A stretch of 34,213 nt of DNA from Bacteroidales bacterium (GTDB lineage: Bacteria > Bacteroidota > Bacteroidia > Bacteroidales > Muribaculaceae). Made by a program: the position numbers and the translations under genes. This document shows, piece by piece, positions 17,513 to 20,847 of this stretch. The notes under the pieces are model-generated. The model was given only the letters and a program-made list of their open reading frames with translations, had not been told where the DNA came from and did no database searches. The DNA lies in contig JAAVFI010000025.1 of NCBI GenBank assembly GCA_014800815.1, forward strand, positions 1 through 34,213, given 5' to 3'. The first letter of the stretch is position 1. Each line of letters opens with the position of its first letter.

Positions 17513-18622
17513 ATGAAAAGATATATCATGGCTTTCGATTCCTTCAAAGGATCGCTCACATCACGGCAGGCCAACGCCGCTGCTGCCGAAGGTGCTCGTC
17601 GTGCCGACCCTGCATGCAGTGTTAGGGAAATTGCGGTTGCCGACGGTGGCGAGGGTACGCTCGATGCACTCGCGTCGGCTCTTGGTTGCACTGTGCGTCA
17701 CTGCAAGTCGGTAGATGCTGCTGGTCGTGCTATCGAGTCGGAATACGCCGTAACACCCGACGGCGACACCGCTATTATAGAGACGGCCTCGACCATAGGC
17801 CTGCCGCGTATCGAACCCGAGCTGCGGCACCCGCTCATGCTTTCCTCTCGTGGTGTGGGTATGCAGATAGCCGATGCAATTGCCGCCGGATGCCGTAATA
17901 TTATAATATGTATAGGAGGCACGGCTACTGTCGACGGAGGCGTCGGAATGCTCCGGGCTCTCGGCGCTCGCTTCCTCGACCGCGAGGGTTGTGGCGCCAC
18001 CTCTATTATAGATATATGTAGTGTGGATGTAAGCGGCCTCCCGCAAGGAGTGAAGTTCGTAGGCTTTCACGATGTGACCAACACTCTCTGCGGCGCAAAT
18101 GGCGCTCCCGAAATATTCGGACCGCAGAAAGGTGCCACGCGCGATGAGATAGTCATCCTCGACAAAGCGCTCTCGCTTCTCGCCGATGTAGCCGTCGACG
18201 CAGGTATGGCTGATTGCCGAAACATGCCCGGAGCAGGCGCGGGCGGTGGCATCGGTTTTGCTCTTGCGGCCTTTCTTGGCGCTGATATGAAGTCGGGTGC
18301 AGCAGAAGTCTTGAAATTGACAGGCCTTGACAGTTTGCTCGACGATGCCGACGCCGTCTTTACGGGCGAGGGCAGGGTAGACCGCTCAACCTTGTTCGGC
18401 AAAACGCCCTTCGAAGTTCTGCAGCTCGCAAAATCTAAAAGTGTGCCCGTCTATGCTCTTGGAGGCTCCGTCGATGCCGCTCAAAATCTGATTGACGCCG
18501 GATTTTCCGAAGTTTGCGGAATAGTTCCCGAAGGCCAACCGTTGAGCGAAGCTATGATTCCTGCTCAAGCAGCAAAAAATCTGGCTGATACTGTAGAAAA
18601 ATTAGTTCGCAAATTGACCTGA
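17513..18622 (+). CDS. glycerate kinase
   Basis: This 369-residue protein belongs to the GarK/GlxK glycerate kinase family (Gly_kinase), which phosphorylates D-glycerate with ATP to 2-phosphoglycerate (3-phosphoglycerate in some members). Family landmarks: 'AFDSFKGSLTSRQANAAAAEG' at 8-28, 'VADGGEGTLDAL' at 42-53, the Gly-rich 'GGTATVDGGVGMLRALGARF' in the middle, 'PGAGAGGGIGFAL' and 'FTGEGRVDRSTLFGK' towards the end. The usual length is about 375, so it is complete. The 220 bases before it hold the MFS terminator and no recognisable promoter. The gene may depend on read-through or a different sigma factor. Confidence 0.93.
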   Translation: MKRYIMAFDSFKGSLTSRQANAAAAEGARRADPACSVREIAVADGGEGTLDALASALGCTVRHCKSVDAAGRAIESEYAVTPDGDTAIIETASTIGLPRIEPELRHPLMLSSRGVGMQIADAIAAGCRNIIICIGGTATVDGGVGMLRALGARFLDREGCGATSIIDICSVDVSGLPQGVKFVGFHDVTNTLCGANGAPEIFGPQKGATRDEIVILDKALSLLADVAVDAGMADCRNMPGAGAGGGIGFALAAFLGADMKSGAAEVLKLTGLDSLLDDADAVFTGEGRVDRSTLFGKTPFEVLQLAKSKSVPVYALGGSVDAAQNLIDAGFSEVCGIVPEGQPLSEAMIPAQAAKNLADTVEKLVRKLT

Positions 18623-18698
18623 AAGGTGGTGTAAAAGTCGAATTTTGGGTGTCAAACGCAAAATAATGTTAAATCCATGAAAATTTTTGCTCCAAAAT

Positions 18699-18729
18699 TA
18701 TGTTGTATAACATATAATTTCTAATTTTG
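18699..18729 (+). promoter_or_regulatory. promoter of small-RNA candidate, copy 1, with operator-like dyad
   Basis: TATG (18699-18702), 19 bases, TAATTTTG (18722-18729): one mismatch to the sigma-ABfr consensus. The inverted repeat TATGTT-gtat-AACATA (18699-18714) overlaps the -33 box. Confidence 0.65.
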
Positions 18730-18734
18730 CATCA

Positions 18735-18798
18735 GTTTTTCATGGTATTAGATTTAAGGTGAAAAGGTTATTCGTCGAGACGACGAGTAATTTTTTTT
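18735..18798 (+). ncRNA. candidate small RNA, copy 1
   Basis: The segment runs from the expected start (about 6 bases past the -7 box) to the end of a T8 run, about 64 nt. It ends in an 8-bp hairpin (18770-18777 with 18781-18788, one G-T pair, loop AGA), then AA and eight T: a standard intrinsic terminator. Copies 2 and 3 have loop CGA, so one of the two changes falls in the loop and the stem is kept. It contains a six-codon frame, MVLDLR, whose TGA overlaps a GTG, so a leader-peptide reading is an alternative. The start site is predicted. Confidence 0.55.
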
Positions 18799-19141
18799 GC
18801 TTTATACCCACCTATTCTTTCGTAACGTTCTGCTTTTCAATAATATCATATTTTATAATTAGCTGCTTATCAGGTCATCCACGTGGTGTTCGGAGAACAC
18901 CGATTAACTCGCGCCCCGGTAGATGCCGTAGCGAAGCGGAGGAATGTGCCCGGATAGCCTCATACACCACGTTGGCGTACGGTCAGGATGCCGATTCATG
19001 GCAGAGTCAGTGTCCCACCGCTCCTTGCACAGTATCTGCAATCCGCCTTCCCGAAAAGGAAAATATCCTGTCCAAAAACGGCCAAAAATCCACCTCAAAT
19101 ATAAAATAATGTTAAACCGATGGAAATTTCTGTCCAAAAAT

Positions 19142-19172
19142 TATGTTGTATAACATATAATTTCTAATTTTG
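19142..19172 (+). promoter_or_regulatory. promoter of small-RNA candidate, copy 2, with operator-like dyad
   Basis: TATG (19142-19145), 19 bases, TAATTTTG (19165-19172). The TATGTT/AACATA dyad is identical to that of copy 1. Confidence 0.65.
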
Positions 19173-19177
19173 CATCA

Positions 19178-19241
19178 GTTTTTCATGGTATTAGATTTAA
19201 GGTGAAAAGATTATTCGTCGCGACGACGAGTAATTTTTTTT
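19178..19241 (+). ncRNA. candidate small RNA, copy 2
   Basis: This is the same layout as copy 1: about 64 nt, terminator stem 19213-19220 with 19224-19231, loop CGA, T8 at 19234-19241. It differs from copy 1 at two positions (AGG to AGA before the hairpin, and the loop base). Confidence 0.55.
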
Positions 19242-19606
19242 GCTTTATACTCATCTTTCTTTCGTAATGTTCTGTCTTCCAATAATCTCATAATTTTTAA
19301 TTAGCTATTTATCAGGTCATCTACGTGGTGTTCGGAGAACACCGATTAAATCGCGCGGTACATGCCGTAGCGAAGCGGAGGAATGTGCCAGGATAGCCTC
19401 ATCCACTACGTTGGCGTCCGGTCATGACGCCGATTCATGGCAGAGTCAGCGGTATGTCTCTCCGTGTATAATATCTTGCTCAAATAAAGCGCACAGTATT
19501 TGCAGCCCTCTTTTCTCAAAAAGGAAAATATTCTGTCCAAAACGGCCAATAAATCCGCCTCATACATAAAATAATGTTAAACCGATGAAAATTTCTGCCC
19601 GAAAAC

Positions 19607-19637
19607 TATGTTGTAAAACATATATTTTCTAATTTTG
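19607..19637 (+). promoter_or_regulatory. promoter of small-RNA candidate, copy 3, with operator-like dyad
   Basis: TATG (19607-19610), 19 bases, TAATTTTG (19630-19637). The dyad arms TATGTT and AACATA are kept while the four bases between them change from GTAT to GTAA. Confidence 0.65.
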
Positions 19638-19642
19638 CATCA

Positions 19643-19706
19643 GTTTTTCATGGTATTAGATTTAAGGTGAAAAGATTATTCGTCGCGACGACGAGTAATT
19701 TTTTTT
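19643..19706 (+). ncRNA. candidate small RNA, copy 3
   Basis: About 64 nt, in its transcribed part identical to copy 2, with terminator stem 19678-19685 with 19689-19696 and T8 at 19699-19706. This copy lies about 140 bases before dusB, whose own -7 element follows at 19809. Read-through could make it part of the dusB leader. Confidence 0.55.
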
Positions 19707-19808
19707 GCTTTATACTCAAAGTTTGGCGGAAAGGGATAAAAACGAGCCTCTTTGGATAACAAATTGGTCAAAATTTCCTTTTGATTTTTTCGCTCTGTGA
19801 TTATTTCG

Positions 19809-19848: not shown

Positions 19849-20847
19849 ATGAAAATAGGCAGTGTGGACTTGGGTGATCGTCCTGTAATGCTCGCCCCGA
19901 TGGAAGATGTAACGGATGCTTCGTTCAGACTTATCTGTAAGGAGCAAGGTGCTGATATGACTTATAGCGAGTTCGTATCGGCTGATGCCTTAATCCGTAA
20001 TATCGCTGCCACCACGCGAAAGCTCCATATTGCCGAAGGTGAGCGCCCTACAGCCATACAGATTTATGGCAGGGAAGTGGAGCCTATGGTGGAGGCTGCT
20101 AAAATTGTAGAGAGCGCAAATCCCGATATATTGGATATCAACTTCGGTTGCCCCGTGAAGAAGGTGGCAGGCAAGGGAGCCGGTGCAGGTATGCTCCGCG
20201 ATATTCCCAAAATGCTCGAAATTACTCGCGCGGTGGTCGATGCCGTCAAAATCCCCGTCACCGTCAAGACCCGTCTGGGCTGGGACTGCAACTCAAAGGT
20301 AATAGTAGACCTCGCCGAGCAGCTACAGGACTGCGGTATCAAAGCTATCACTGTGCACGGTCGTACGCGCTCGCAGATGTACACCGGCGAGGCCGACTGG
20401 GAGGAAATTGCCAAGGTCAAGGCAAATCCGCGTCTCACCATTCCCGTTATAGGAAATGGAGATATCACCAAACCCGCTAAACTTAAAGAGGCGTTCGAGC
20501 GTTATAATGTCGACGGAGTGATGGTGGGCAGAGCTTCGATAGGCGCCCCCTGGATTTTCCAAGAAATGACCGGCCTCCTGCGCACGGGAAGTGTTCCCGA
20601 AGTATCGGTAGCCGAGAAATTCGCTCTCCTGCGCCGACAGATACGCGAAAGCGTGGAGCGCATCGACGAGTACCGCGGAATTCTCCATATCAGGCGCCAC
20701 CTCGCTGCTTCGCCGCTCTTTAAAAGCATACCATCGTTTCGCTCAACGAGGATAGCAATGCTCAAGGCTTCGACTCTCGATGAACTTGAAGCAATCCTCG
20801 CAACAGTTGAAAATGAAATAATTCCCTCGCTCGAAGCGAGACCGTAA
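19849..20847 (+). CDS. dusB: tRNA-dihydrouridine synthase, DusB type
   Basis: This FMN enzyme reduces uridine to dihydrouridine in the tRNA D-loop with NADPH. The 332 residues have the Dus TIM-barrel: N-terminal 'VMLAPMEDVTDASFR' (13-27), catalytic cysteine C101 in 'INFGCPVKKVAGKGAGAGML', the flavin-contacting 'VKTRLGW', 'ITVHGRTRSQMYTGEADW', the phosphate-binding 'IPVIGNGDI' and 'VDGVMVGRASIGAPWIF'. A C-terminal helical RNA-binding part follows. Length is typical. It is probably the first gene of a unit with the head-GIN protein (24 bases) and the flippase (26 bases). Confidence 0.96.
   Translation: MKIGSVDLGDRPVMLAPMEDVTDASFRLICKEQGADMTYSEFVSADALIRNIAATTRKLHIAEGERPTAIQIYGREVEPMVEAAKIVESANPDILDINFGCPVKKVAGKGAGAGMLRDIPKMLEITRAVVDAVKIPVTVKTRLGWDCNSKVIVDLAEQLQDCGIKAITVHGRTRSQMYTGEADWEEIAKVKANPRLTIPVIGNGDITKPAKLKEAFERYNVDGVMVGRASIGAPWIFQEMTGLLRTGSVPEVSVAEKFALLRRQIRESVERIDEYRGILHIRRHLAASPLFKSIPSFRSTRIAMLKASTLDELEAILATVENEIIPSLEARP

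Follow-up and report, generated by a model that had tools for sequence, protein, structure and literature searches.

Three tandem FopS small RNA genes with Cur-type palindromes at their promoters in a Muribaculaceae genome

The window, as we call the whole stretch of 34,213 nt analyzed here (contig C25), belongs to a Muribaculaceae genome of 2.77 Mb that is 99.9% complete. Between a glycerate kinase gene and dusB it carries three tandem units, all on the plus strand, spaced 443 and 465 bp apart (Table 1). Each unit contains a -7 element, TAATTTTG, followed by a 68-nt block and an intrinsic terminator. The original prediction, made from the sequence alone, had described a triplicated cassette of promoter, short transcript, and terminator, and the three copies are confirmed where it had placed them; the two spacings differ by 22 bp, in agreement with the spacer indel of about that size it had noted. 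The two differences that had been counted between copies 1 and 2 are borne out over the stretch that begins with the -33 region (18699) and closes with the T8 run (18798): 18767 (G/A), directly preceding the terminator stem, and 18778 (A/C), within the loop of the hairpin. The stem itself, given as 8 bp, is 10 bp long, with 18768-18777 paired to 18781-18790. Of the near-consensus sigma-ABfr promoter that had been proposed, the -7 element is good, but the TATG taken for a -33 box opens a 16-bp palindrome; tested against the canonical promoter, all three copies have the -7 element and have this box in place of the -33 element. Protein coding was rejected, since the open reading frames that cross the array begin within copy 1 or in the repeat and were judged spurious.

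Table 1. Coordinates of the features of the FopS array and its flanking genes in the window
Feature	Positions	Strand	Basis
Glycerate kinase gene	17513-18622		TIGR00045
Unit copy 1	18605-18810	+	
Cur/BT4338-type box copy 1, TATGTTGTATAACATA, replaces -33 element	18699-18714	+	Perfect core of PMC6989115 consensus
-7 element TAATTTTG, copy 1	18722-18729	+	Sequence
FopS sRNA gene copy 1 (seed 18736-18760)	18733-18800	+	RF04319, 58.6 bits
Intrinsic terminator copy 1 (10-bp stem, 3-nt loop, T8)	18768-18798	+	Fold, covariation
Dispersed repeat element, spacer 1	18877-19010	.	Spacer matches in own genome (49), none in 60 relatives
Unit copy 2	19048-19253	+	
Cur-type box copy 2, TATGTTGTATAACATA	19142-19157	+	Perfect consensus core
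-7 element copy 2	19165-19172	+	Sequence
FopS sRNA gene copy 2 (seed 19179-19203)	19176-19243	+	RF04319, 58.1 bits
Intrinsic terminator copy 2	19211-19241	+	Fold, sequence
Dispersed repeat element, spacer 2	19319-19449	.	Spacer matches in own genome
Unit copy 3	19513-19718	+	
Cur-type box copy 3, TATGTTGTAAAACATA	19607-19622	+	Perfect consensus core
-7 element copy 3	19630-19637	+	Sequence
FopS sRNA gene copy 3 (seed 19644-19668)	19641-19708	+	RF04319, 58.1 bits
Intrinsic terminator copy 3	19676-19706	+	Sequence
dusB gene	19849-20847		TIGR00737

The blocks were proposed to be a small RNA family, with a search of Rfam covariance models as the check. All three match the Rfam family FopS (RF04319) over the full model (1-71) and above its curated cut-off of 56 bits (E = 1e-7 to 1.3e-7 per copy, in a 1,251-base stretch), and the 25-nt FopS seed is exact in each. 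They are therefore members of a known family, the RNA itself being predicted. Two copies fold better than shuffled sequences (z = -3.0 and -3.4). The GibS sRNA (RF04182) was rejected as an identity, with scores of 26-29 bits (best 29.1) against a cut-off of 115; GibS has the R1 part of its seed in common with FopS (PMC11697453) but differs from FopS by a second seed and by its PM2 promoter.

The 14 FopS genes of Bacteroides thetaiotaomicron (FopS-01 to -14) share with the window copies the seed, a single-stranded 5′ part, the terminator hairpin, the length, and the occurrence in multiple copies (PMC11697453). FopS RNA appears there as bands of ∼65 and 70 nt (PMC11697453), and the RNA predicted here would be about 66-68 nt long. 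The window differs in having a tandem array of three, a Cur-type box instead of the canonical -33 element (the B. thetaiotaomicron promoters being taken from the paper's text only), and a genome without a detected RRM_1/RbpB protein. A canonical promoter and association with RbpB are the context of the B. thetaiotaomicron copies and not part of the definition of the RNA family. The words "tandem" and "Muribacul" are absent from the text of that paper (PMC11697453). The RNA family itself is thus known, and what looks new is the class of promoter, the setting without RbpB, and the dose that tandem copies would give.

Conservation was expected to follow the mini-gene and not the whole repeat, and this is what we observe. 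Between copies 1 and 2, there are two differences among 103 aligned positions from box to terminator, compared with 20 among 205 in the spacer (P = 0.0099, Fisher's test). Copies 2 and 3 have identical sRNAs (0/69 differences vs. 6/72 upstream, P = 0.028) and differ at two of 34 positions from the box to the start site. The original prediction also held that the RNA is under selection, and homologs with a destroyed terminator were looked for: In an alignment of 38 bacterial homologs (out of 81 listed references), the 10-pair terminator stem is paired in 98.7% of 372 cells. Six of its pairs change on both sides, in 59 cells where shuffling gives 18 on average; the number of further pair types, at 16 against a shuffled 15.9, is not in excess. 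The exact 25-nt seed is found in 96 of the 117 nonviral FopS copies, a proportion that the covariance-model and seed-pattern searches favor. The entropy table was built from these 96 exact-seed copies alone, hence its zero entropy in the seed. Stem pairing and covariation, together with the kept seed, therefore mark the seed and the terminator as what is kept.

Every one of the 36 other genomes searched within the genus has FopS, as do 149 out of 149 genomes of the family (30 of 30 genera), 141 of them above the cut-off. The source genome has six matches: the three in the window, one each on contigs C2 and C43 at 69 bits, and one on C73 that falls below the cut-off. This last copy (C73:13571-13643, L067, minus strand; 41.8 bits) has an altered seed and a G+C-rich hairpin, and lies between what we take to be a tryptophanase-like gene and an rnz-like gene. 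Among 20 same-genus regions around copies that score like those of the window, each has one FopS copy; six of these copies adjoin a dusB gene 77%-88% identical to that of the window, and in none of the 20 is a glycerate kinase gene within reach. Two of the 20 regions end at a contig edge and so could hide arrays, and a pair of weak FopS-like matches separated by 206 bp in one genome (G036:C115) indicates that close FopS pairs occur elsewhere. The single copies in relatives and the shared dusB neighbor suggest one ancestral FopS gene at dusB, tripled later.

The spacer sequence has 49 matches in its own genome, many of them as inverted pairs or near contig ends, and its 156-bp core has no match in 60 relatives (E threshold 0.001). 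Aligned over the two window copies and 18 others, the repeat is ∼130 bp long with hairpin-like blocks (GGTGTCC/GGACACC and GGCGTCC/GGACGCC) and is possibly REP-like. We saw no general tie between this repeat and FopS: It has no match in the fetched regions surrounding the three other FopS copies of the genome and the 20 relatives' copies. Judging from these sequences, a unit consisting of FopS and the genome-specific repeat was probably duplicated locally to give the array, and the dispersed element may have aided that duplication. It is conceivable that the tripling is without function in itself and reflects chance amplification via the high-copy repeat, with the likeness of the copies kept by gene conversion. 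The presence of the repeat in the unit and the one copy per region in 20 relatives fit such an origin, but box, promoter, and sRNA are near identical while the spacer has diverged by ∼10%; conversion could give the same pattern, and on balance we regard a tripling without function as doubtful.

Eight viral contigs (L151-L158) carry the exact 25-nt FopS seed followed by differing terminator-like hairpins, with the Cur-type box upstream in none. These copies were found by the exact seed, so the identity in eight out of eight is not independent. One of the contigs adjoins an apparent tRNA end. Phage-borne FopS could act on SusC-type surface proteins of the host.

The palindrome at the -33 place matches the core of the published binding site of BT4338, wwwTATGTTnTAnAACATAwww (PMC6989115), without a mismatch in all three window promoters. 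BT4338 is the regulator later named Cur (PMC10294740). An 18-bp form of the box, scanned across the genome at up to two mismatches, yields 18 sites compared with four for the reversed control. Only six perfect cores occur in the 2.77 Mb, three of which are the window copies. One of the others precedes an indolepyruvate-oxidoreductase alpha gene (C73:1625; TIGR03336, 524 bits, below the model cut-off) and one at the membrane-fusion gene of an efflux-type operon (C73:27261); the third (C49:66192), within a terminator-like hairpin, was discounted. Cores with one mismatch are located upstream of an EF-G2 gene (C2:113717; NF058620 on a partial protein, 790 bits against a cut-off of 1000), of a CRP-family gene, P0001 (C8:38514), and of a gene at C2:12681. 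The most enriched region in BT4338 chromatin immunoprecipitation in B. thetaiotaomicron is the promoter of fusA2, which encodes EF-G2 (PMC6989115). For background, 201,608 bases of the genome not fetched for the box contain three sites at up to two mismatches (∼0.0008 per promoter-sized window), one of which is C49:66192, and such a site occurs in two out of 40 further 250-bp upstream regions.

The comparison covered the promoters of 125 FopS copies, 117 of them nonviral, after identical 145-bp stretches had been merged and three copies (L050, L064, and L145) dropped for short upstream DNA. The box, at up to two mismatches, is present in 55 out of 117 nonviral promoters, compared with 0%-0.7% of shuffled upstream sequences. 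By group, it occurs in three out of three window copies and none of the three other copies of the genome, 32 out of 59 in the genus (14 out of 41 once the 18 copies picked because they resemble those of the window are set aside), eight out of 35 in other genera of the family, eight out of 13 in other families, and all four further metagenome-assembled copies, which were selected by pattern. A -33-like motif, defined after the promoters had been viewed as TTTG, TTGC, or TTGA in a 12-bp range, is absent from 52 of the 55 box promoters and present in 42 of the 62 without a box. By this mutual exclusion, the box takes the place of the -33 element. The box center lies 22.5 bp from the final base of the -7 TTTG in 24 of the 32 genus copies with the box.

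FopS promoters of named relatives were read from contigs filed as plasmids (24 matches and one contig taken by accession), which cover a subset of the named FopS places. In Bacteroides finegoldii, six out of 10 FopS copies have the box at up to two mismatches: In five of them, it lies 71 bp before the seed, near -60, with an intact TTTGC -33 element in between, and one copy, which follows a gene for a class I SAM rRNA methyltransferase, has a perfect box at -39. The box is also found in four of seven copies in Parabacteroides distasonis, in one of six in Phocaeicola massiliensis (three more at three mismatches), and in the single copy of a Bacteroides ovatus plasmid, though not in the single Prevotella copy; Bacteroides phage BX-TP2 (L312) has a four-mismatch box at the -71 place. 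Many PLSDB "plasmids" of TSDC17.2-1.1 strains of B. finegoldii, P. distasonis, and P. massiliensis (NZ_OY725931.1 and NZ_OY725754.1, for example) carry housekeeping genes and resemble chromosomal contigs filed under plasmids.

These arrangements bear on the direction of control. The box in the window is centered at about -27 and overlaps the promoter, where it could be repressive; scarce carbon would then shut FopS off and free SusC translation for scavenging. BT4338 is known to repress as well as to activate (PMC6989115), and the palindrome stands at or past the start site in P0001 orthologs and in the efflux-type operon. Against repression, 52 of the 55 box promoters would be weak without an activator because they lack the -33 motif. 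CRP-type activators classically bind near -60, upstream of a complete promoter, so the B. finegoldii copies with this layout favor activation. We therefore consider repression of FopS by the box unlikely.

The candidate for the Cur protein of this genome is P0001, a CRP-family protein of 232 residues (PF00027 and PF13545) whose nearest solved relative is 2gau. It has a match in 35 of the 36 other genus genomes, in two pieces in one of them (G028); the exception is G024, which is 71% complete. Its relative in B. finegoldii (54% match) adjoins glutamine synthetase III, and P0001 shares a 20-residue segment, REDLANLSNMTTSNAIRTLS, without a difference with its relatives in B. finegoldii and P. distasonis, the helix being identical. 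BT_4331 is the host gene of FopS-14 (PMC11697453); if the B. finegoldii methyltransferase gene corresponds to it, the gene count places the P0001 relative at about BT_4338, two intervening locus tags being absent from the table. The comparison of P0001 with Cur thus runs through the B. finegoldii protein, by the 54% match and gene order, and not through the BT4338 sequence. In 14 out of 30 P0001 orthologs of the genus, ATGTTnnnnAACAT occurs at up to one mismatch within 250 bp upstream, and in 16 it does not; nine of the 14 have it directly after a -7-like TTTGC or TTTGT, as if the gene were autoregulated.

At the efflux-type operon (L168), the Cur-type palindrome likewise lies just past a -7-like TTTGC, upstream of the membrane-fusion gene. 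Among 30 orthologs of the operon, 11 have the palindrome at up to one mismatch: only six beside a -7-like TTTGC (L210, L211, and L213-L216), four at another site near -145 (L220, L221, L224, and L228), and one at -79 (L237). The perfect box at this operon would also fit a different regulator that binds dyads, for instance one responding to bile or membrane stress, acting on otherwise ordinary FopS copies, as would the bile-salt response of FopS in B. thetaiotaomicron, where the RNA is bile-induced (PMC11697453). Because the core is that of the published BT4338 consensus and also stands upstream of the gene for EF-G2, the best-known target of BT4338, we regard a regulator other than Cur as quite improbable. 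The paper on B. thetaiotaomicron FopS reports a canonical promoter plus a further, unidentified regulator (PMC11697453). No published link between Cur and FopS was found in the literature on FopS, on BT4338 and sRNAs, and on the Cur regulon, with preprints and most subscription papers outside the scope of the search.

In B. thetaiotaomicron, FopS-10 acts at the start codon to block translation of SusC, a block that is lifted by RbpB (PMC11697453). An RRM_1 domain (PF00076), the type that binds FopS there, is detected in none of the 37 genomes of the genus, including the source genome, although a strongly diverged RRM could escape the search. Across the family, it is found in two out of 149 genomes, both <90% complete, compared with 16 out of 24 genomes of other families. 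Eight of those 24 have FopS, five of them with RRM_1, and 16 lack FopS, 11 of them with RRM_1. Two modes of action had been suggested for multicopy RNAs of this kind. Titration of a protein becomes less likely, since no RRM_1 protein is found in the genome; additive action on mRNAs agrees with the published view of FopS.

Pairing of the seed with mRNA start regions (-45 to +30) is stronger for SusC genes than for window genes, with mean energies of -12.86 kcal/mol (19 genes) and -10.11 kcal/mol (22 genes), respectively (P = 0.0016). The SusC set comprises the 19 genes above the cut-off, each assigned the first ATG in its reading frame as the start, and the score is pairing energy alone; G+C is slightly lower in the SusC leaders (0.34 vs. 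0.38). The advantage of 2.74 kcal/mol is reached by none of 300 shuffled seeds. The sites of pairing vary, and several overlap the ATG (L104, L100, and L107). An anti-seed pattern at up to three mismatches has 12 matches in the genome (none for the reversed control), five of which are FopS copies; of the seven others, two (on C16 and C71) are not located at the beginning of a gene. Among anti-seed pairings at start codons, the strongest (-23.8 kcal/mol; L131, C43:34337-34354) precedes a gene that presumably encodes a UDP-GlcNAc 2-epimerase and is a possible non-SusC target of FopS.

Putting these observations together, we think it likely that the locus comprises three FopS genes activated by Cur at carbon shortage that dampen SusC translation without RbpB, the tripling raising the dose. 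Under carbon shortage, Cur, as a CRP-family regulator, would bind the palindrome at the -33 place and turn on FopS transcription. The FopS seed would then pair over the start regions of mRNAs for SusC-type and other outer-membrane or secreted proteins and block ribosome loading. The tripled gene would supply a higher dose of FopS under common control. As no RRM_1 protein is found, the circuit should run here without RbpB, which counteracts FopS in B. thetaiotaomicron. An sRNA gene activated by Cur has a precedent in MasB of B. thetaiotaomicron, although MasB is another RNA with another target, BT_1675 (PMC10994844).

A broader reading extends this to the order: FopS may be a direct post-transcriptional arm of Cur across Bacteroidales that does not need RbpB, with the box either replacing the -33 element or sitting near -60, and we give this a somewhat better than even chance. 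From the promoters compared here, the first arrangement would hold in the window, many Muribaculaceae, some Parabacteroides, and the FopS-14-like copy of B. finegoldii, and the second in the other B. finegoldii copies. The Cur paper expects a Cur-controlled sRNA or RNA-binding protein to act on the roc leader; BTnc140, BTnc195, and BTnc364 had no effect there (PMC10294740). FopS would be a candidate for the postulated sRNA (PMC10294740).

The sequences thus point to Cur as the further transcriptional regulator of FopS for a large subset of its genes in several families, and a gut family retains FopS while nearly lacking RbpB-type proteins. If the proposed circuit is true, the question of which sRNA or RNA-binding protein acts downstream from Cur, raised in the Cur literature (PMC10294740), gains a candidate, and the master switch of carbohydrate use in gut Bacteroidales would work at two levels, activating glycan use and silencing SusC translation.
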